A stretch of DNA of 64,000 nt, taken from the NCBI RefSeq assembly GCF_900142475.1, contig NZ_FRAY01000005.1, positions 186,001 to 250,000 of the forward strand. The letters are read 5' to 3'. Positions 10,069 to 25,626 of the stretch are shown one piece after another. This DNA comes from Fibrobacter sp. UWH4. GTDB taxonomy: Bacteria > Fibrobacterota > Fibrobacteria > Fibrobacterales > Fibrobacteraceae. The translations under genes and the position numbers were made by a program. Within the stretch, counting starts at the first letter, position 1. Each line of letters begins with the position of its first letter. The notes beneath the pieces were generated by a model. That model was not told the DNA's origin. It saw only the letters and a list, made by a program, of their open reading frames with translations, and made no database searches.

Positions 10069-10899
10069 ATGAAAGATATACTTGAATATACGAGCTACCG
10101 TCAGTATATCGCGGATTATTACGCCGACAAAAAGGCGAAATCTGCGTTTACCTGGCCGGAGTTCGCTTCTGCGGCGGGATTTTCTTCGCCGGTCTACTTA
10201 AAATATGTGAGCGAAGGCCGCTTCAACTTGAGTGACGCCGCTGTCGATCGCGTTGCCGCAGCGATGCACTTGATTGGTGGCGATCTCGAATTTTTCCGTG
10301 AATTGGTGCGCTTTGACCACGCCAAGACGGACAAGGCGAAAAAGGAATCGTTCCAGAAGTTGGTGGCGATGGCGGAAAGTCGCAAGGTGAAAGTTGTCGA
10401 GGCCGATGCGTACCGCTACTTTGACAGCTGGAAAAATCCGGTGCTTCGCGAACTTGCGCCGGCCATGCCGGGTGCAAAACCGCTTGCACTAGCGAAAGCT
10501 TGTCGCCCTAAAATTACCGCTGCCGAGGTGAGTGATTCGCTGAACTTTCTGGTGAAGGCGAACATGCTTCAGAAAGACGAGAACGGCAATTACGTTCAGA
10601 CGGACAGGTCGATTACGGCTGGTCCCATGGAAGTGACTCCCGCTGTGATTCGCGGCCTGCACCGTCAAATGGGCGAACTCGCGCTTGACACAATCGAAGG
10701 CGTGCCGCAAAACGAAAGGCATTTTTCGGGTGTAACGCTTGGCATTACTCAAGGTGCCTACGACGAAATTGTCGCTGAAATCAATGCGTTCCGCAAGCGC
10801 ATTATTGAAATTGCCACGAGGGAAACCGAAACGGATGAGGTGTACCGCCTGAACATCCAGTTTTTCCCCATGACGAACAAGAGTTCTAAAAAGGGTTAG
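10069..10899 (+). CDS. TIGR02147 family protein (Fibrobacter paralogous regulator-like)
   Basis: 276 residues starting MKDILEYTSYRQYIADYYADK, the signature opening of TIGR02147, a paralogous family found mainly in Fibrobacter and related to DUF4423. The segment TWPEFASAAGFSSPVYLKYV resembles a helix-turn-helix, which supports a DNA-binding regulator, though this is not demonstrated. The middle (DAYRYFDSWKNPVLRELA) and the C-terminal VYRLNIQFFPMT are typical of the family. The start was set by a GAGGAGG box. The FISUMP lipoprotein gene follows after 9 bp with its own AGGAGG, so the two form a unit; a plausible reading is that it controls its neighbour's expression. Confidence 0.85.
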   Translation: MKDILEYTSYRQYIADYYADKKAKSAFTWPEFASAAGFSSPVYLKYVSEGRFNLSDAAVDRVAAAMHLIGGDLEFFRELVRFDHAKTDKAKKESFQKLVAMAESRKVKVVEADAYRYFDSWKNPVLRELAPAMPGAKPLALAKACRPKITAAEVSDSLNFLVKANMLQKDENGNYVQTDRSITAGPMEVTPAVIRGLHRQMGELALDTIEGVPQNERHFSGVTLGITQGAYDEIVAEINAFRKRIIEIATRETETDEVYRLNIQFFPMTNKSSKKG

Positions 10900-15855: not shown

Positions 15856-16194
15856 ATGGATAAAGAACCAGAAGTTTTAGATGTGAAGAATTTGAACGGT
15901 GCCTCGCCACTGCAAAAGGGGCTCGCCGTTTTTTTGATGATCATGTCACTTTTGTACACCGTGTCGCCCGTTGACTTGGCGCCCGATGCCATCCCCGTGG
16001 TGGGCTGGCTCGATGATATCGGATTCCTCGTGACTGCCACCATGAATGTGGTTCAGCAGTTCTCAAAGGATCAGAATTCTGCCCTGGTGAAAATCCTAAA
16101 ATATGCCAAATGGTTTATGGTCATCGCCGTCGTAATTGCCGCTCTGTTACTCGGCGGTTTAATCGCTGCGATTGTGGCGCTGATTGTGAAGTAG
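15856..16194 (+). CDS. YkvA/DUF1232 family membrane protein
   Basis: 112 residues. The central SPVDLAPDAIPVVGWLDDIG is the DUF1232 (YkvA) signature: a membrane-embedded turn with conserved Asp residues. A second hydrophobic segment (FMVIAVVIAALLLGGLIAAI) anchors the C-terminus. YkvA proteins are of unknown function. The start follows AAGGAA. It is the first of three closely spaced genes (15 bp and 9 bp gaps) that all encode hydrophobic or membrane-active looking proteins, so it is probably the anchor or partner of the other two. Confidence 0.85.
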   Translation: MDKEPEVLDVKNLNGASPLQKGLAVFLMIMSLLYTVSPVDLAPDAIPVVGWLDDIGFLVTATMNVVQQFSKDQNSALVKILKYAKWFMVIAVVIAALLLGGLIAAIVALIVK

Positions 16195-16209
16195 AAAGGA
16201 AAATTTTGT

Positions 16210-17787
16210 ATGAAGCCTTTGCTAAAAATCGAGAATGACGATTTTGCTGTAGAATTTGAAATGTCATCTGTGTGGGATGATATTGTTGGTTCCGATTCTC
16301 GCATGCAGGAACTTGAACGTAAGATTCATGATGAAGATTCTTGCATGGAAGCACGTCAGCAACAGATTGATAAGTTGAATGAAGATATCGATCGCTTGAC
16401 AAATCATGCCGATGGTGTTGACTATATGGTCGCTGTTATGAGTGGCATAATAACGGGACTGATCGATTCTTTTATTGTTGGCGAGTGGAATTTTGCTAAA
16501 GCAAAGGCCGAAAGTAATAAGAATGTTAATAATATGGTTATGGATTTCGCCAAAAAACATGGGTATACAGGCGATAGACTTGACGGTGCAATAGCTTTTC
16601 TAGAGAAAAAATTCCGTTTGCCGGGAGATGGTGCGTATCAGTTTAATCCAGAAACTCTGATAAATGCAAAGACGCATCATTTAGATGATTTTTGCCATCA
16701 TCCGACTTTGGTTGGCTTAATATGCAATGTGATTGTCCAATTTACCGGGGAATCTGTCTATGTCAACAAAGATAGCGATAGTTTTTCTATTCCTATTTCG
16801 GTAAATGAGTATGGACAATTTCAAGGAAATAATACTGTTACAAAATTATTCTGTGGAATTATAAATTGGATTATTAACGCCGCTAAGGCTATGGCTAATG
16901 GCTATGGTCACTGGATGAGCGATATTGCAGGCTCTTCGAGTGCTCAAAAAGGTGGTGCTGGTTTGCCAGGACCAATATTGTCCATGTTAAAGGAATTATC
17001 GGCATTACCGATATTTAAAGAATCAAATTTTGGAGAGTTGTTACGTAGAGCTTTCCAAAATGGAATCGGACCTGGTTCTAAACAAGTTGACCTTGGGGCG
17101 TTTAATTCTTTGTTCGAGGGGGCTTCTAGTAAATTAGATTTTCGAACGGAAATGGCTGTATTTAGCGAATTAAAACGTCAAGCGTTACCGGTCGTGATAA
17201 ATGAAATAATTGTTAGAGGTTTTTATTTTGTTAGACGATTTATGTTTGAGTTGAAAGAAGGTAAACCTCTTTCTGAGATTAATTGGCGAAAAGTTATGCC
17301 GTTCAATAATCGAACCATTATTCGAATGCTGACCATTGCAACGGGCTCATTTGCAGCGTTTGATATTATTGATGCGACTATTCGAGCCTCGATAAAGAGC
17401 GGTGGAAATGCTCCTATCGCTTTAGCGGATGTCTTGTTGCGTGTTAATTTTGTTGGCGTGGGGCGTTTTGCTGTAGCCGTATTTTCTGATCTCAAAATGG
17501 GTTTCGAAAAGAAACGTGCTGAAGGCAAGGTACTGGAGCTTGAAATGGAACAACTCAAATCTCTTGGTGTTAAATTGTATTATTGCCAAGAAGAAACTTG
17601 GGTGATGGCCGATAATTGCCTAGTAGCGTATAAGCAACTTGCTCAAACTGTAGAAAAAGCAATTGAAAAAAATCAAGAGGCGGTTAAATCTATTCAAGCC
17701 GATACGGCAATTGTTGGTGAACATTTATCGGATATTGCAAAGAATGATTCCAAATTTGCAAAGGATTTATTAGACGATCTTTTTTAG
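16210..17787 (+). CDS. Large uncharacterised protein with hydrophobic segments and coiled coils
   Basis: 525 residues, no family recognised. Residues about 35-70 (MQELERKIHDEDSCMEARQQ...) form a coiled coil. A hydrophobic stretch follows (YMVAVMSGIITGLIDSFIVG), then a conserved-looking HHLDDFCHHPTLVGLICNVI, further amphipathic segments (CGIINWIINAAKAMANGYGH), and a long helical C-terminus (EKAIEKNQEAVKSIQADTAI) ending in acidic residues. The pattern suggests a membrane-associated or membrane-inserting protein rather than a metabolic enzyme. AT-rich composition contrasts with flanking housekeeping genes. It lies between the YkvA gene and the 228-residue gene with tight spacing and good ribosome binding sites, which supports a three-gene unit. 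Confidence 0.75.
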   Translation: MKPLLKIENDDFAVEFEMSSVWDDIVGSDSRMQELERKIHDEDSCMEARQQQIDKLNEDIDRLTNHADGVDYMVAVMSGIITGLIDSFIVGEWNFAKAKAESNKNVNNMVMDFAKKHGYTGDRLDGAIAFLEKKFRLPGDGAYQFNPETLINAKTHHLDDFCHHPTLVGLICNVIVQFTGESVYVNKDSDSFSIPISVNEYGQFQGNNTVTKLFCGIINWIINAAKAMANGYGHWMSDIAGSSSAQKGGAGLPGPILSMLKELSALPIFKESNFGELLRRAFQNGIGPGSKQVDLGAFNSLFEGASSKLDFRTEMAVFSELKRQALPVVINEIIVRGFYFVRRFMFELKEGKPLSEINWRKVMPFNNRTIIRMLTIATGSFAAFDIIDATIRASIKSGGNAPIALADVLLRVNFVGVGRFAVAVFSDLKMGFEKKRAEGKVLELEMEQLKSLGVKLYYCQEETWVMADNCLVAYKQLAQTVEKAIEKNQEAVKSIQADTAIVGEHLSDIAKNDSKFAKDLLDDLF

Positions 17788-17796
17788 GAGACTCTT

Positions 17797-18483
17797 ATGG
17801 CAGAAACAAATAATGCAATCATTATAGCTCCAGAAATAAAAAATGCGGAGCAGGCGGAAACTTATGCTGGCGAAAAATTTGAAAAACTAGCAGCGCTAGA
17901 AAAGGAGATAGATGCTTCGCTAAATGAATTGAAAAAGTTTAGCGGGATGGAAAAATATTCAACGGAGTTTTTACGAACTACTTTGTTCTCTGCATTAGGA
18001 TCTACAGGGATTGCTGGGATGGGAATTGCCGCTGCAACAATAGCTCTTCCTATTGTTGGATGGCCTTTTTTACTCGGAGGAGGCCTGTTGGGAATAAAAA
18101 ATCTTTTTGGAGGAAAAGATCTTTCAAAGGCTGTAAATCAGCTTGCTGAAGGCCAAAAAGATATTTATGAACGTTTGGTTAAAGTTTCTCGAATTCAAGT
18201 CTTGCTATTTGAATTTCAGCGTGTGATGGCGGAAATTCTAAATGAATTGTTTGAAATGTGCTCGTCAAATATTGAAGTCGTCCAAGCGACAATTAATACG
18301 TTGCGAATGAAATTGGATAAAAATGCGACTTCAATGACGGAATCGACAAAGCAAAATGTGAGAGACTTGATAAAAAAATTAGCGTCTCGTCAAGATACTC
18401 TGATGAAACAAGAAGAGATGAAAATGCAAATCAAGCAATTAAAAAATGAGATTGCTGAATTACGCTCCATGATTCAGAAGTGA
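17797..18483 (+). CDS. Uncharacterised protein: helical with a Gly/Ala-rich hydrophobic hairpin
   Basis: 228 residues. Residues about 20-60 are a charged helix. Residues about 65-105 form a long hydrophobic Gly/Ala-rich hairpin (ALGSTGIAGMGIAAATIALP then IVGWPFLLGGGLLGI). Residues 110-228 are long helices ending in a classical coiled coil (EEMKMQIKQLKNEIAELRSM). Long helices flanking a membrane-inserting hairpin are what alpha-pore-forming proteins look like, but membrane-tethering proteins share that plan, so function is not assigned. The start follows TAGGAG, 9 bp after the 525-residue gene, and a clear terminator at 18514 closes the unit. Confidence 0.75.
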   Translation: MAETNNAIIIAPEIKNAEQAETYAGEKFEKLAALEKEIDASLNELKKFSGMEKYSTEFLRTTLFSALGSTGIAGMGIAAATIALPIVGWPFLLGGGLLGIKNLFGGKDLSKAVNQLAEGQKDIYERLVKVSRIQVLLFEFQRVMAEILNELFEMCSSNIEVVQATINTLRMKLDKNATSMTESTKQNVRDLIKKLASRQDTLMKQEEMKMQIKQLKNEIAELRSMIQK

Positions 18484-18513
18484 ATGGGGTGGAAAACATC
18501 AACTCTACGGTAC

Positions 18514-18541
18514 AGACCTAACTTGATTTAGGTCTTTTTTG
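18514..18541 (+). terminator. Intrinsic terminator closing the membrane cassette
   Basis: Arms AGACCTAA (18514-18521) and TTAGGTCT (18528-18535) form a perfect 8-bp stem with a 6-nt loop, followed by TTTTTTG. It lies 30 bp after the stop of the 228-residue protein gene. Confidence 0.88.
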
Positions 18542-18775
18542 ATGAATGCCGTGACGAGATTGTAAAGGGCAAGACCATCCACATAAAAACGCACTAGAGT
18601 GGAGTCTTGGCTCTGAAAAAGTGTTATGTTTTTTGCGGCTTTTCAGTAGCATTACAACTTGGATCAATTAAGATCAGGATTTATGAATTGTTTTTGCCCC
18701 CTTCTTTTATTTTGAGGTTAAATTTATACCGGATGCAGTAATTGTTGCTTTGTTTTTGAAATGGGGAGGGACTTT

Positions 18776-19000
18776 ATGGGCGACAAAGTGAAAAAATTGA
18801 AGGGAAAATTTGTCTCTGTAGTGCAAACTTTTTTGGATAAAACTGGCGCCGTATTGCATGGCTTGCCGAATGCTGTAAAGCCTAGACTTCGCAATCTGCT
18901 GCATGCGCAATTTAAGAAAACCATTATAGAGGCTGCGGTTAAACTTATCTTTTGTGTGATTGCTGTTTATTTGGCTGTTTTTAAGCCTTTTGGAGAATAA
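18776..19000 (+). CDS. Small membrane protein, 74 residues
   Basis: MGDKVKKLKGKFVSVVQTFL opens a basic amphipathic N-terminal half, and the C-terminal half contains one transmembrane segment (AAVKLIFCVIAVYLAVF). No family recognised. The start is set by GGGGAGGG at 18763-18770, one of the better ribosome binding sites in this stretch. It follows 290 bp that hold the cassette terminator and AT-rich sequence, and precedes another small membrane protein gene by 24-36 bp. Size, basic charge and single membrane span would suit a small toxin or an accessory subunit, but nothing in the sequence decides this. Confidence 0.6.
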   Translation: MGDKVKKLKGKFVSVVQTFLDKTGAVLHGLPNAVKPRLRNLLHAQFKKTIIEAAVKLIFCVIAVYLAVFKPFGE

Positions 19001-19036
19001 AGTTCGCTATGGATATCGTCACTCTTGTTTATTGGA

Positions 19037-19414
19037 ATGTTGCTGTGGACAATTTTTGAATCTGTTTCATATTGTATGCTTTTGATAATGATTGTACAAG
19101 AGCGTAGTGTACGGACAGGAATAATTGAATTTGTTAAGTGGAAATTCCCCAAGGTGTCGATTGGATCGGATATATATGAAATAGCGCGTATTTTCGGACC
19201 ACGTTTTTCTTCTCAATTTCAAAATCTTCGCTCGTCTAACGATGTAATATGGGACTTTATTGTTTATTTGGCAAAAAATGCCATCACTTTTGTTTCGATA
19301 TTCTCTTTATACATTTTGTTAGTTCATTGGATATTTAAGCCTATTATTCTTGAAAATTTTGCGGGATTGACGACAATGCAGATTTATCTGTTCCCAATAA
19401 GACAATTTTTGTAA
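19037..19414 (+). CDS. Small membrane protein, about 125 residues
   Basis: A two-span membrane protein: LLWTIFESVSYCMLLIMIVQ near the N-terminus and FVSIFSLYILLVHWIF in the second half, joined by a basic cytoplasmic-looking loop (VKWKFPKVSIGSD). No family recognised. The start is uncertain: ATG 19037 has only a weak TTGGA upstream, and a TTG at 19025 in the same frame would add four residues. It sits between the 74-residue protein and the DUF262 gene, with 41 bp to the latter, so all three may be cotranscribed. Confidence 0.5.
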   Translation: MLLWTIFESVSYCMLLIMIVQERSVRTGIIEFVKWKFPKVSIGSDIYEIARIFGPRFSSQFQNLRSSNDVIWDFIVYLAKNAITFVSIFSLYILLVHWIFKPIILENFAGLTTMQIYLFPIRQFL

Positions 19415-19455
19415 TAGGATGATGATAAACAGCGAATTTAATCGGAGGAAAAATA

Positions 19456-21660
19456 ATGACAGTATGGAAAGTTGGTTGCCGTTGGAGTAAAAATGGAAAT
19501 GAAAATTCTAAAATCATTTCTGTTTTTAGGCGTAATGAGGTTGTTTTTGTCGGGGAACAAAAACATATTTTTGAAAAGATAAGGAATGGCGACTTAATTG
19601 CTATAGCTGATGGTTATACAGTGATTTCTGTCGCCAAGGCGACATGTGATGCGGCTCCTTTAAAAGAACTCAAGTCAACAATTCGGATACGCAGCAACGA
19701 ATTTGGTATTATCGATGAATCGTGGCCTCGCGAGAACGCTGTTGGCGTGACTGCAAAAATATTTGATTTGCCAACATACGATGAATCTTTAAAAGAAGAC
19801 TCTGATGTTCAACAAATTCAGTATAAAAAGCGTGGATCTTGCTGTAAGGTGTATCAAATAGCAGACAAGGTTAAGACGCTATATGAAAGGTGTGCTGTGT
19901 CTTCTGAAAAATTTGATATTGATTGTAAAAGGTGTTCTTTGAAAGAATTGCTTGATTCAAAGACTCGTTATGTAATCCCGGTTTATCAACGTGAATATTC
20001 TTGGGGGGAACCGCAGGTTGCTAAATTTATGAGGGATTTGCTGACGGGCTTTTGTGGAGTTTCCGGTTTTGATGAAAATGAAAATGGTGAAAAAAAGCTT
20101 TTGCCAAAAGAAAAACCGGCTCCAATGTTTATTGGAACGATGCAATTGTCGTATCGTAAATATATCACAGAGGATGAACAAGAACAGGATGTGATTGACG
20201 GCCAGCAACGATTTAGTACCCTTTTATGTTTATTAAAGTATTTATCATTTTATTGTAATGTATCTGATATTCATTTCAATGACATTCTTGAATCTAGAGT
20301 GAATAAAGGTAAGGAAGATGAATTTCTAAATGAAGCGATGTCTTTATCTTTAAAAGACTTGAGTGGGGAATTTATATGCAATAAATACATAGAGAATATT
20401 AAACTGATTGAAGAAATTTTAAATGAAGAGGGACTTCAGAAAGAGTTCTATGAAAAATTGTTGGCTTATGTTAAGGAGAATATTTGGTTTGTTGTAATAA
20501 CTACAAGGGCCGGTATTTCCAAGACTTTAGAAATTTTCAATACTATCAATACAGCCGGACTAGATTTGAATGGTTGTGATTTGTTTAAGGTTAGGTTGTA
20601 CGAGTACCTTAAAGATAAAAAGGGAAAAGAACAATTTGATGATATTGATCTTCTTTACAGCGAGATAAAGAAACAAAATCTTGATTGGAGATTAAATCAC
20701 GATTTTGATTTAATTAACGTAGGTATGGTTCGTGATATATATAAGACCTATCTGATTGCCAAATATGATTTGCCAAATATTATGTATGCATGGGGTTCTG
20801 ACCGATTTTATGATGTGCTGTTTGATATTTGTCTAGATGTTGCCCCACATCGGGAATTGCATCTTGATGTCAATCGGGTTCGAAAGGTTGACTTTAGTTT
20901 AGACGATTTGCAAAAGGTTAAGGATGCCGTAATACTTTGGAATTCAAGAAAGATTGATTCCCCAAAAAAGATGATTGTCGATGTACTTATCGGCAAGTCT
21001 CGGTATGGAAGATTTTGGCAATATCCTATTCTCTATCTACTTTTTACAGGAGAAAAGGTAATTGAGAAAGTATATGGAACATGGCGGTTGCTCGCAATGA
21101 TATTCTTTGCGTATAGCGTTAGTTATGCAAAAATTGTAAACGATGGAATAACTTTTATGTATAGTATTTATAAAATGCTGTATAATAAAGATGCTATTGC
21201 TATTGATGAGATGTTGATGAAAAAAAGAACTGAATTACAGCAAAAGTTAGAAGCTAAATTAGAATATCCTATCACTGACAATCGAAAAAAGAAAGATTTA
21301 ATCTGCATTGTGTCTGCGTTCCTCAAGGAACCTCATATAGTAGACGAACATAGTATAGAACAATTGAAAAATCGACTTTCTTGGGGCTTTGATGTGGAAC
21401 ATGTTCATGCTACAGGAGATGGATCTGTTGAAGTGGACTGGGCTCTTCAAAATAGCATTGGTAATTTAATGCTATTGGAATCCAGCATTAATCGTTCTAT
21501 AAAAGATAAACCATTTAAAGAAAAAGTGGAATGGTACAGTAAAAGTGAATATGCTGTTGCACAACAAATGGCAAAAATGAAATGTTGGGAAACTCAACAA
21601 ATTCAGGAACGATTAAAAGCCGAGAAAGAAGCGATATTGGATTTTTATAATCAAACTTGA
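19456..21660 (+). CDS. DUF262/DUF1524 protein, GmrSD-like modification-dependent nuclease
   Basis: 734 residues. After an N-terminal domain of about 70-150 residues (VWKVGCRWSKNGNENSKIIS) comes the DUF262 (ParB-fold NTPase) domain with PVYQREYSWGEPQVAKFMRD and the catalytic VIDGQQRFSTLL near residue 247. The C-terminus has the DUF1524 His-Me nuclease signature FDVEHVHATG (near 646), SIGNLMLLESSINRS and KPFKEKVEW. This is the architecture of fused GmrSD type IV restriction enzymes, which cut modified phage DNA in an NTP-dependent way. The extra N-terminal domain resembles PUA/EVE-type readers of modified bases, an inference from layout only. The start has a GGAGG box. A+T is high (about 63%), unlike flanking core genes, which fits transfer. 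Confidence 0.85.
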   Translation: MTVWKVGCRWSKNGNENSKIISVFRRNEVVFVGEQKHIFEKIRNGDLIAIADGYTVISVAKATCDAAPLKELKSTIRIRSNEFGIIDESWPRENAVGVTAKIFDLPTYDESLKEDSDVQQIQYKKRGSCCKVYQIADKVKTLYERCAVSSEKFDIDCKRCSLKELLDSKTRYVIPVYQREYSWGEPQVAKFMRDLLTGFCGVSGFDENENGEKKLLPKEKPAPMFIGTMQLSYRKYITEDEQEQDVIDGQQRFSTLLCLLKYLSFYCNVSDIHFNDILESRVNKGKEDEFLNEAMSLSLKDLSGEFICNKYIENIKLIEEILNEEGLQKEFYEKLLAYVKENIWFVVITTRAGISKTLEIFNTINTAGLDLNGCDLFKVRLYEYLKDKKGKEQFDDIDLLYSEIKKQNLDWRLNHDFDLINVGMVRDIYKTYLIAKYDLPNIMYAWGSDRFYDVLFDICLDVAPHRELHLDVNRVRKVDFSLDDLQKVKDAVILWNSRKIDSPKKMIVDVLIGKSRYGRFWQYPILYLLFTGEKVIEKVYGTWRLLAMIFFAYSVSYAKIVNDGITFMYSIYKMLYNKDAIAIDEMLMKKRTELQQKLEAKLEYPITDNRKKKDLICIVSAFLKEPHIVDEHSIEQLKNRLSWGFDVEHVHATGDGSVEVDWALQNSIGNLMLLESSINRSIKDKPFKEKVEWYSKSEYAVAQQMAKMKCWETQQIQERLKAEKEAILDFYNQT

Positions 21661-21697
21661 TAAATCTTATGCTTGAAATAATTTAAACCGTTTCCTT

Positions 21698-21730
21698 CGC
21701 ACGACGCTAATTGTCGTGCGCTTCTTTTAT
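21698..21730 (+). terminator. Intrinsic terminator after the DUF262 gene
   Basis: Perfect 8-bp arms CGCACGAC (21698-21705) and GTCGTGCG (21713-21720) with the loop GCTAATT are followed by CTTCTTTTAT. A related hairpin with GATAATTGTCGTGCG lies at 25690-25709. Confidence 0.8.
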
Positions 21731-21759: not shown

Positions 21760-24060
21760 ATGCAGCTACATTATCAGAATTCGGCAGAGAATTATTTCGG
21801 GAATGCTCTGGATCGGTTAGAAGGGGAGTCGCCTGCGGCGAAGGCGGAGTCGAGGACTTCTTTTATCGACTTGAAAATTATGGAATACTGGGTGCGCTTT
21901 ATGCGGGCGTATCCGGATGGTTGCTGTCGCAGTTTTTGCGAGAATTATTTGCCGGTTCGTTATTATGGCGATTTTGCGGATCGTGTTTACGAGATTCGCG
22001 ACCAGGTTGATTTTTCGAGTACTATCAGGACTTCGATTGATGACAAGCATTATGGGGTGCGGGAACTTTTGGAGGCGTATCACGAAACCAGGAATGTTCG
22101 CTTTGCTCAGCAGTTTTTTGAGATTATGGCTTATTTGGAGCGCGCAAACGATTGCTTGCGACCGATTATCGTGCAGATGATTGAAAATTGCGTAAAAGAA
22201 AAGCTGGCAAAAGGTTGCTCGCCCGATGATGATGCCTTGCAGCGCGTTTTTGAATTGAAACGTCTCTTCCATTTGTCCGATGAGGCTGTGGAACTGGTGC
22301 TTTATTTGTGGCTTCGAAATCATCAGCGCTTGTATTTGAGGTTGGAAAATATTCGCGTGAAAGATGGGGAAATTTTTGATCCGAACGAACGTGGTGGCTT
22401 TAATCGGATTGCCTTGCTGACGGGACTTGATGCTGCTACGCTTCAGGAGCTTTGTTCCAAGGAGAGTCCGCTTCTTAAGTTCCAGCTGGTTCAAATAGAA
22501 GAATCGTTCCGCAATGCGGATTTAAGAATCAAACGCAAGGAATTGTACCTAGCGGACGATGTGAGCAATTATCTGTACGGGTTTTCGGATATGTCGCGGA
22601 TTATGGATTTCAAATCGGCAGCAAAACCGTGTGTCCCCTATGAGCAGATAGTCAAGACGAATCCGCAGGCGTCTTTTGTTTTGCAGATGCTGAAATCGCA
22701 CCAGAAGGGCTCTCCGCTGAACATCCTTTTTTATGGCCGCGAGGGTACGGGCAAGACGGAACTTGCCAAGGCGATTGCGCAAGAATTGAATGTTACGCTG
22801 CTTTCGGTGGGCATCGGTGAAGAATCGATGAGCGAGGAATCTCTTTTGCAGACACGCCTGCGCTCGATGCTGCTTGCCGATTGGGAATGTGAGCGGAGTG
22901 GCGGCATCATCTTGATGGATGAGGCAGACTTGGTTTTGAACAAGGCAGAAAAGGGATTGCTGAATATTATTTTTGAGAGCCTGAAAACGCCTGTTATCTG
23001 GATTACGAATAATATCGCGATGATTGAAAATAGTACCCGCCGCCGTTTCGATTATTCGTTGGAATTTTTCTCGTTCAGCAAGAGCGAACGCTTTGCAATT
23101 TGGCAGTCCGTACTGAAAACGCAACAGGCGGAATCACTGATGCGTGGCGAAGATATTGAATGTGTCGCCAAGGAAATTCCGGTGATGGCAGGGAGCGCCA
23201 CTTTGGCAGTTCGGCTTGCGCGACGGATGCAGTCTCAGGAGATGTCGCCTTTGAATGTGGTTCGCGAGGTCGCTTCTTCGCATGCTAAACTTTTGGGTAT
23301 ACCGACTTTACCGCAGGAATCAAGGCCGGATTATAATTTGGATTGCGTCCGTATTTCGAGCGGGGATATTCGGAATGTAGATTATGTCGTGCCGATGCTC
23401 AGAAATTTTGATGCACGCTGGAAAGATTCGAAATTGACGAGGCGTAGGGAAAACCTGAATATATTTTTGTATGGTCCTCCCGGCACCGGAAAGTCGGCTT
23501 TTGCAAAGCATATCGCGCATGACATTCTAGATCGCGAGATTATCGTGAAACGGGCGAGCGATATTCTGGGGTGCCATGTGGGTGAAAGTGAACATAATGT
23601 TAGCGCCATGTTCCGTGAAGCGGAACGGAGTGATGCGATTCTGTTTATCGACGAGGCGGACAGTTTCTTTGAAAATCGTGGCAATGCGAAAAACCATTGG
23701 GAAGTGACCCTAGTGAACGAGTTTATTTGCCAGATGGATTCGTTCAATGGGATGCTGATTGCTGCGACAAACTACGAGAATGTCTTGGATTGGGCGATTC
23801 GCCGGCGTTTTCAGCTGAAGTTGGCGTTTGACTATATGGACCTGCCGCAAATTTCAAAAACTTGGACGGCATTTTTCGGGGGCCATTGCCCCAAGGAAGT
23901 TCTTCGCTGCGACAATGTGGCGATTAGCGACTTGCAGAATGTGCGCCGCAAGCTAGAATATGTGCCTACTGAGTTACGGACGAAGGAGCTTATCTTGCAG
24001 AACATGCTTGAAGAACTCGCCAATAAAGACGACCATCAGGGCCGTAAGCTGGGATTGTAA
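21760..24060 (+). CDS. Tandem AAA+ ATPase
   Basis: 766 residues: a helical N-terminal region of about 300 residues, then two AAA+ modules. The first has Walker A GREGTGKTELAK (about 325-335) and Walker B GGIILMDEADLV (about 382). The second has Walker A YGPPGTGKSAFAKHIA (about 570) and Walker B ILFIDEADSFF (about 627), with an arginine-rich RRRFQLKLAF after the sensor region. Both modules keep the catalytic Glu and so should hydrolyse ATP, in a ring like Cdc48/ClpX-type remodellers. No protease or nuclease domain is fused. The N-terminal EGESPAAKAESRTSF is compositionally odd and may be repeat-derived. AAGAGG precedes the start. The PLD-like gene follows after 26 bp, which suggests the ATPase acts with it. 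Confidence 0.85.
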   Translation: MQLHYQNSAENYFGNALDRLEGESPAAKAESRTSFIDLKIMEYWVRFMRAYPDGCCRSFCENYLPVRYYGDFADRVYEIRDQVDFSSTIRTSIDDKHYGVRELLEAYHETRNVRFAQQFFEIMAYLERANDCLRPIIVQMIENCVKEKLAKGCSPDDDALQRVFELKRLFHLSDEAVELVLYLWLRNHQRLYLRLENIRVKDGEIFDPNERGGFNRIALLTGLDAATLQELCSKESPLLKFQLVQIEESFRNADLRIKRKELYLADDVSNYLYGFSDMSRIMDFKSAAKPCVPYEQIVKTNPQASFVLQMLKSHQKGSPLNILFYGREGTGKTELAKAIAQELNVTLLSVGIGEESMSEESLLQTRLRSMLLADWECERSGGIILMDEADLVLNKAEKGLLNIIFESLKTPVIWITNNIAMIENSTRRRFDYSLEFFSFSKSERFAIWQSVLKTQQAESLMRGEDIECVAKEIPVMAGSATLAVRLARRMQSQEMSPLNVVREVASSHAKLLGIPTLPQESRPDYNLDCVRISSGDIRNVDYVVPMLRNFDARWKDSKLTRRRENLNIFLYGPPGTGKSAFAKHIAHDILDREIIVKRASDILGCHVGESEHNVSAMFREAERSDAILFIDEADSFFENRGNAKNHWEVTLVNEFICQMDSFNGMLIAATNYENVLDWAIRRRFQLKLAFDYMDLPQISKTWTAFFGGHCPKEVLRCDNVAISDLQNVRRKLEYVPTELRTKELILQNMLEELANKDDHQGRKLGL

Positions 24061-24086
24061 AGTTCAATAAATCTATATTTCCCTTC

Positions 24087-24608
24087 ATGCCAACCTTTAC
24101 CAAGTACATCCAGAACGAGGAACATTACTCCGAAGTGATTTCGCGAATTATGTCGGTCCGCAATAATTTGTGGATTGGTACTGCCGATATCAAGGATGTG
24201 TATGTGAAACAGGATGGAGATGCGATTCCGTTGCTTGGGCAACTTGCAACGCTTTTGAAACGCGGCGTGGGTATTCGTCTGATTCATGCAAAGGAGCCGG
24301 GTCCGAATTTCCGCGAGGACTTTGACCGGTTCCCGATTCTGGTGACGGATTTGGAGCGTGTGATGTGCCCGCGGGTGCATTTCAAGATGATGATTTTTGA
24401 TCTCGAAACGGCCTACATCGGGTCTGCAAATTTGACGGGGGCGGGAATCGGCATGAAAAGTTCTTTACGCCGAAACTTCGAGGCGGGAATCCTCACAAAT
24501 GACCCTGCGCTTGTTGAACCTGCTATAGAACAGTTTGATACGCTATGGATGGGCTCGCATTGCAAAAAATGCGGTCGCCAGGAATTCTGTGGTGATAGGA
24601 TTAAGTAG
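24087..24608 (+). CDS. PLD-like (phospholipase D superfamily) protein with a C-terminal Cys cluster
   Basis: 173 residues. A single HKD-type motif is present: His98 and Lys100 in RVHFKMMIFD, followed by YIGSANLTGAG with the Ser and Asn expected in PLD nucleases and lipases. One motif per chain implies a homodimer, as in Nuc/BfiI-type nucleases. The last 15 residues (CKKCGRQEFCGDR) carry three cysteines that could bind zinc. No signal peptide is seen, so it should act in the cytoplasm, probably on nucleic acid. It is 26 bp after the tandem AAA+ gene and its end overlaps the end of the convergent WYL gene by 8 bp. There is no evident ribosome binding site. Confidence 0.8.
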   Translation: MPTFTKYIQNEEHYSEVISRIMSVRNNLWIGTADIKDVYVKQDGDAIPLLGQLATLLKRGVGIRLIHAKEPGPNFREDFDRFPILVTDLERVMCPRVHFKMMIFDLETAYIGSANLTGAGIGMKSSLRRNFEAGILTNDPALVEPAIEQFDTLWMGSHCKKCGRQEFCGDRIK

Positions 24609-25626
24609 ACTTTCTTTCGTACAGTTTTACCAAATCTTTTGCGCTGTCGAGTACCATTTGACGGAGCTTGGCAGGCTTTAGCACCTCGGCGATGGAACCG
24701 TAGTACATAACCCATTGCTTGAGTAGGCCGTTTACGGCGACGTTCATGGTCACGTGCAGGTCGCCACATTCCAATTCTGTGATTTTCATGCTAGGGTGGT
24801 AGGGACGTTCCTGCAGAAAGTTCTTGGCGTATCCAGGGAAATAGATGACGACTTTTTCTTCTTGCTGGTCCTGGTCGCCCGAAAGCAGCGTGCCTGTGCG
24901 GATGCGCCTGCGGAGCGTCTCAACGACTTTCGGGTCTTCGACGAATTGTTCGCGCAAGAGTTTTACGGATTGAATGCGGCGAAGCTTGAGAGCGTATGTC
25001 TTGTCGGGAAGGTGTTGCGACACGCAGCCGATGTAGATTTCGCCCTGGTGGATGGCTACCATCAGCGGAATGCGAGGCTTGTTGGTTATATTGCCCCAAT
25101 TGTCGGTGTAGGCGATTTGCACCTTCTGTTTTTTGCGGATGGCATCGAGAATGACCGGTAGATTTTTGCCTACATTTTCGTCAACGCTCGGAGGCGTTCC
25201 CATGAATAGAATGCGTCCGTTCAGTTCTTTCGCGTAATGCGCCAAAGTCGATTGTTCCTTGATGGGCAAATCCTGCGTGATTCTCTTAGTGAGGTCTTCG
25301 ATAAGGTTCGATGTTGCGGGGTAGATGTTGGCAATGCGCTGCAGGAACATAAAGTGCAAAAGCGTGTCGCCGAATTCCGGGAACACGAGCTTGTTCGCGC
25401 GTTCGAGTGCCACCTGGTAATAGGTCTTGCCGCTTTCGACAGAACGCCTGATGTAGCCGCCCTCGATTTCGGAAAGTGCATGCATGTCGCGTTGCACACT
25501 CCTCAAATCTTCTTCGCGGATGTCCAGGTGCTGCATGATGTCTGCCACACTGTAACGATTGTTGTAATGCGCCATCATGTAGACGAATATCCGTATCATT
25601 CGTTCGCCGCGAGCCTGATCTGCCAT
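24601..25626 (-). CDS. WYL domain transcriptional regulator (YafY-like)
   Basis: 341 residues: an N-terminal winged helix-turn-helix (ERMIRIFVYMMAHYNNRYSV, then DIMQHLDIREEDLRSVQRDM) and a central WYL domain (KKQKVQIAYTDNWGNITNKP, RIPLMVAIHQGEIYIGCVSQ), ending in the usual WCX-like extension. WYL proteins sense ligands, probably nucleic acid fragments or nucleotides, and commonly repress defence systems such as BREX and CBASS loci. A strong AGGAGG precedes the start. It converges on and overlaps the PLD-like gene, so it is likely the regulator of this ATPase/PLD locus, though the target promoter is not shown. Confidence 0.85.
   Translation of the reverse strand: MADQARGERMIRIFVYMMAHYNNRYSVADIMQHLDIREEDLRSVQRDMHALSEIEGGYIRRSVESGKTYYQVALERANKLVFPEFGDTLLHFMFLQRIANIYPATSNLIEDLTKRITQDLPIKEQSTLAHYAKELNGRILFMGTPPSVDENVGKNLPVILDAIRKKQKVQIAYTDNWGNITNKPRIPLMVAIHQGEIYIGCVSQHLPDKTYALKLRRIQSVKLLREQFVEDPKVVETLRRRIRTGTLLSGDQDQQEEKVVIYFPGYAKNFLQERPYHPSMKITELECGDLHVTMNVAVNGLLKQWVMYYGSIAEVLKPAKLRQMVLDSAKDLVKLYERKST

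Follow-up and report, generated by a model that had tools for sequence, protein, structure and literature searches.

Bunzi, a pair of genes encoding BnzA and BnzB, was reportedly first described as an anti-phage system by Millman et al. in 2022. Published surveys list it as an anti-phage system and give its mechanism as unknown. A related arrangement, PDC-M09, is a phage-defence candidate in PADLOC and combines a BnzB-like protein of ~480 aa with a second protein, PDC-M09A, of ~370 aa. Here, we analyzed a 64,000-nucleotide stretch of the Fibrobacter sp. UWH4 genome (contig NZ_FRAY01000005.1, hereafter the window), in which two adjacent genes, p2 and p3, appear to be a horizontally acquired pair that acts against phages and belongs to the Bunzi (BnzB) superfamily, with p3 tethering p2 and p2 acting at the membrane (probability roughly 0.6).

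The original prediction for this locus was a three-gene membrane cassette, and its gene calls were reproduced exactly: p1 (15856-16194, 112 aa), p2 (16210-17787, 525 aa), and p3 (17797-18483, 228 aa) lie on the forward strand with gaps of 15 and 9 bp. The assignment of p1 to DUF1232/YkvA was likewise recovered (PF06803, E = 1.7e-10), as were the coiled coils and hydrophobic segments of p2 and a Gly/Ala-rich hydrophobic stretch in p3 (approximately residues 62-103) flanked by long helices. Neither p2 nor p3 matched a Pfam family. A hairpin with a T tail does follow p3 on the forward strand (18514-18535), in the position of the predicted closing terminator, although terminator-like hairpins were not enriched in the region (3 observed versus 2.7 ± 1.7 in shuffled sequence). 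Proteins of the TIGR02145 (FISUMP) and TIGR02147 (Fsuc_second) families adjoin the locus.

The unity of the three genes was not upheld. The AT-rich composition noted previously applies to p2 and p3 (GC 0.37-0.39, GC3 0.31), but not to p1 (GC 0.49, GC3 0.62), and the neighboring FISUMP gene on the left has a GC3 of 0.59. Of 61 Fibrobacter genomes, 43 have a p1 homolog (25 of the 29 good ones), with orthologs up to 94% identical, whereas p2 and p3 were each present in 1 of 61, the source genome. Throughout the genus p1 occurs without p2 and p3, cross-species homology ends exactly at its stop codon, and phmmer detected no p1 homolog at the other BnzB loci fetched; the three genes therefore do not travel together. 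We conclude that p1 is a Fibrobacter core gene and an ordinary resident of the genus, marking the left edge of the hotspot described below and excluded from the system. The break in GC3 and the presence in a single genome of the genus demonstrate that p2-p3 was acquired, and the earlier suggestion of an acquired membrane-linked system thus holds for this pair and not for p1. It is very unlikely that the locus is a single three-gene membrane cassette in which the DUF1232 protein is a working subunit: the genes are co-directional, p1 and p2 are only 15 bp apart, and co-transcription is probable, but p1 belongs to the core genome and has native GC3, the position behind it is taken by different cargos in sister species, and sister BnzB loci have no homolog of it. 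Less credible still is an ordinary chromosomal Fibrobacter operon for membrane maintenance, which would suit p1 taken alone and is already contradicted for p2-p3 by their foreign base composition and occurrence in one genome. We also considered a split BnzA, with p1 as the N-terminal and p3 as the C-terminal half (p3 versus BnzA in a single comparison: 21.6 bits, E = 0.027), and rejected it, as p1 has no BnzA similarity and is a core gene.

Comparison with sister genomes placed the left homology edge at 16193-16200 (five genomes) and the right edge at 21693-21701 (six genomes), the latter at a hairpin (GCACGAC-GCTAATT-GTCGTGC, 21698-21720, forward strand) located 5' of a conserved AAA gene. 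The block between these edges (16195-21697) contains p2-p3, a split gene of 79/129 aa, and a GmrSD-type nuclease, and is replaced wholesale in sister species by cargo in the same orientation. This cargo comprised a dynamin-type GTPase set with LeoA/LeoBC matches (L127), a similar GTPase set recognized by sequence (L131), a GmrSD-type nuclease (L126), two GmrSD-like genes recognized by sequence (L133), or genes without a family (L132). In L133, a homolog of the 79/129 aa gene directly follows the p1 stop codon, and p2-p3 is hence cleanly absent. Two more distant species carry related genes near the same AAA gene: a LeoA-family dynamin (NF041922, above the cut-off) in G014, and the window's GmrSD nuclease, directly adjacent, in G004. 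Because sister species have LeoA-like dynamins or GmrSD nucleases between these very edges, the block is a defence hotspot, a swappable slot behind a core gene, and the nuclease and defence-like neighborhood recognized in the original prediction proved to be a slot for defence genes that includes p2-p3 itself. Cargo starts 13-240 bp behind p1. Where p1 carries no cargo (L128-L130), a hairpin like that of the right edge directly follows it, which is suggestive of cargo entry between the p1 stop codon and the p1 terminator; such hairpins do recur in the genus. The borders of the hotspot are nearly exact, and its position behind a core gene, in the reading direction of that gene, makes it a place to collect further cargos.

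Several other features of the hotspot were observed. The 79 and 129 aa open reading frames (18761-19414) are in-frame and correspond to one 212 aa open reading frame in L133, and the gene therefore looks split by a stop codon. The GmrSD-type nuclease (19456-21660) has an extra N-terminal region of ~150 aa, and its copy in G004 (L143) is 73% identical. On the conserved right flank (21760-25626), an AAA ATPase with two AAA domains and a PLD-like protein face an opposing WYL regulator; the AAA gene is 93-95% identical across six sister genomes, and the flank may be a defence unit of its own or a hotspot anchor. Hairpins of the type CGACNNTAATTGTCG recur in the window at 10761, 14381, 21702, 25691, and 63549 (3 matches at ≤1 mismatch versus 0.17 expected, and further ones with a looser pattern), as a terminator or small repeat typical of the genus, which marks the right hotspot edge. 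Cargo genes of 148, 494, and 226 aa in L126 (8386-11028) and of 366 and 340 aa in L132 (9999-12399) had no Pfam or PADLOC match, and are candidate unknown defence systems.

The identity of p2 was established by its match to the PADLOC BnzB profile (PDLC03834, E = 8.3e-55), which spans two stretches, the best covering profile positions 140-377. When 84,980 species genomes were searched once using a BnzB alignment, 111 relatives from many phyla were retrieved, of which 80 were kept. In an alignment of 66 sequences (p2 and 65 relatives), 25 positions are invariant and all are retained by p2, including H156, H157, H163, N219, W220, H234, S237, D238, D310, R312, and N413, while D385 and D388 are conserved in 65 and 62 of the 66, respectively. 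Residues 156-238 (16675-16923, forward strand) carry the motifs HHxxxxxHxP, NW, and GHxxSDxxG, in which H156, H157, H163, P165, N219, W220, H234, S237, and D238 are identical in every sequence, and constitute a putative active or ligand site. A single strongly conserved hydrophobic segment precedes them (residues 73-91; 16426-16482, forward strand), with a 19-residue mean hydropathy >1.6 in 97% of the sequences and D86 in 65/66. The C-terminal helical extension of p2 is rare among BnzB proteins (alignment columns 489-510 are gapped in 61-62 of 66), and may be a dock for the coiled-coil partner.

The AlphaFold2 model of p2 is of good confidence (pLDDT 85), and had no Foldseek match at E ≤ 0.001, no confident match to a solved fold, and no match in a viral structure library. 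Sequence searches gave no PDB match for p2 and no Pfam match among the 66 family members. As no known enzyme fold or Pfam family was matched, it is conservation that points to a putative active site: a helical core with invariant polar residues (His, Asp, Asn, and Arg) that is probably enzymatic or ligand-binding. A YdjM-like or zinc phospholipase-like identity, considered on account of the HH and GHxxSD motifs, had no Pfam, PDB, or Foldseek match and is not claimed. The best VIA results for p2 (colicin Ia, with a Z of 9.8 and an rmsd of 3.1 over 84 residues; condensin; MukB) were dismissed as generic coiled coils, and a BnzB match in G028 (L005, E = 1.2e-4) as a coiled-coil match in what reads as a mobilization-type protein.

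BnzB relatives occur in three gene arrangements. The first (20 loci) has a BnzA-type partner of ~550 aa upstream of BnzB, with a PADLOC match where scanned; weak Pfam matches of these partners to bPH_3 and DUF533 agree with the published TerB assignment (PMC10952713). The second (49 loci) has a PDC-M09A-type partner of ~370 aa downstream. In the third, comprising the window, L011, L013, L014, and L015, a coiled-coil partner of 228-462 aa lies downstream. A quick tree with midpoint rooting resolved a seven-sequence branch with a support of 100, in which six sequences (the window, L012, L011, L014, L015, and L013) group without L019 at a support of 85. The window combines a BnzB of this branch with a downstream coiled-coil partner, as the third lineage does, and the coupling is based on six loci. 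When all open reading frames of 95 loci were searched with p3 using phmmer, matches were restricted to copies of p3 and to the genes that immediately follow BnzB in L011, L015, and L013 (E = 4e-7 to 2.6e-5); the L014 partner also aligns with p3 in an alignment of p3 with the four partners. Gene order is conserved in unrelated genomes, with p2 and a downstream partner recurring in unrelated phyla. Two branch members depart from this order: L019 is a natural fusion of BnzB and an M09A-like Gly/Ala hairpin in a single chain, and in L012, which has no separate partner, BnzB is fused to a terminal region of five TM segments. The lineage seems rare, with no further members at E ≤ 1e-60 among 392 other genomes in the order of L011, and no match in viral contigs searched with the lineage alignment. 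One phage record contains a BnzB relative (31% identity).

Elsewhere, the L011 pair is flanked by hsdS and hsdR within a type I restriction locus that also has a Fic-type candidate. L012 adjoins a gene read as a conjugation-type coupling protein, and 18 of 23 plasmid-borne BnzB relatives are on mobilizable plasmids. The frequency of relatives on mobile plasmids and the conjugative-element-like context of L012 could indicate action against competing bacteria or plasmids instead of phages, but we regard this as improbable: the pair has no secretion or immunity gene, its hotspot neighbors are of anti-phage type, and its canonical relatives are classed as anti-phage. Homology and placement in the hotspot make an anti-phage function for p2-p3 likely.

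Other BnzB-like loci were noted outside these arrangements. Two other Fibrobacter genomes (L003, 1072-3304, and L004) encode a more distant BnzB-like protein of 446 aa, and in L003 the next genes code for a coiled-coil protein of 126 aa and a DUF1353 protein; these loci possibly represent a fourth architecture. Three Clostridia loci (L063, L075, and L087) have a short BnzB (~430-440 aa) followed by open reading frames of 83-89 aa, a candidate for another partner type. In the Bacillus relative L013 (5968-7386), one TGA lies inside the BnzB frame, within the lineage-profile match, and this is possibly a broken copy.

The helix-hairpin-helix plan of p3 was previously likened to alpha-pore-forming proteins. 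Hydropathy supports a Gly/Ala-rich hydrophobic hairpin at residues 62-103 (17980-18105, forward strand), and it is modeled as a hairpin at low confidence, p3 being a helix, the hairpin, and a long coiled coil in succession. BnzA and PDC-M09A carry long Gly/Ala hairpins and that of p3 is shorter, with no reliable sequence similarity between p3 and either protein (hhalign probabilities of 5% and 0.5%, respectively). The p3 model is weak (pLDDT 61), and the structure searches proposed for a pore or tether fold returned nothing specific (Foldseek to ClyA, E = 1.1; VIA Z <10, with generic coiled coils). The four sister partners of the third lineage have one C-terminal TM helix and no hairpin.

Under a pore-forming interpretation, p3 would be the effector, its hairpin inserting into the inner membrane and depolarizing the infected cell, with p2 restraining or triggering it. 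The layout of p3, the hairpins in BnzA and PDC-M09A, and weak matches to LeoBC (1.6e-5) and alpha-xenorhabdolysin A (1.2e-4) are all compatible with such a role. Nonetheless, we consider it unlikely, given that the xenorhabdolysin match is confined to coiled-coil residues 140-223, outside the hairpin, that the invariant residues belong to BnzB and not to the partner, and that no specific fold was matched. Because a single C-terminal TM helix replaces the hairpin in the four sister partners, a role as a membrane tether suits the hairpin better than that of a conserved pore. The resemblance in plan to pore-forming proteins therefore stands, while the pore reading itself is weakened.

With p3 as a proposed membrane tether or adaptor and p2 as the core component of the pair, p3 would bind p2 through coiled coils and its hydrophobic hairpin would anchor p2 to the inner membrane. 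Infection that disturbs the membrane or supplies a signal would then trigger the p2 core to act at the membrane, and phage production would be stopped, with the cell itself probably sacrificed. Because the pair lies directly behind the p1 stop codon, p1 may lend its promoter, from which p2-p3 is probably transcribed. The partners of BnzB (BnzA, PDC-M09A, and coiled-coil p3) are interchangeable membrane modules. Since the partners share membrane entry and the BnzB proteins share polar residues, we infer that activity resides in BnzB and tethering or sensing in the partner. More tentatively, BnzB could be a membrane-associated enzyme with an undescribed helical fold, in which the His/Asp cluster would provide the killing or signaling shared by the three lineages and the partners would serve as exchangeable sensors or tethers.

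Compared with named systems, p2-p3 shares with LeoABC/LeoBC dynamin-like systems a weak match of p3 to the C-terminal half of LeoBC and the presence of LeoA-type genes in the same hotspot of sister species, but neither p2 nor p3 has a GTPase domain. Alpha-xenorhabdolysin-type toxins share the helix-hairpin-helix plan, although the coiled-coil match scored 21.5 against a cut-off of 125, falls outside the hairpin, and the hairpin is not conserved in the p3 family. PDC-M09 is closer, with a BnzB-like gene (~31% identical) followed by a hairpin/coiled-coil partner after a gap of a few bp (9 bp in the window; 49 loci); however, p2 falls on a separate branch of the quick tree, and PDC-M09A matched neither p3 nor any other protein of the genome. 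Bunzi itself is likewise a two-gene system, with a BnzB homologous to p2 over the core and a partner with a membrane hairpin. It differs in that the window's partner, p3, is downstream, 228 aa long, and without N-terminal PH-like and TerB-like regions, and in that p2 is missing the first ~140 positions of the BnzB profile and carries a C-terminal coiled coil specific to its lineage. BnzA had no match to p1 or p3, and a search of the entire genome at E ≤ 1 likewise gave none. As BnzB is present and BnzA is not, the pair can be called Bunzi only with qualification. It is a rare variant, a third architecture in the Bunzi family, rather than a new three-gene machine. Comparison of the three architectures separates the constant part, a BnzB core with invariant polar residues, from an exchangeable membrane partner, and predicts that point mutations in BnzB should abolish protection and that membrane anchors should be swappable.
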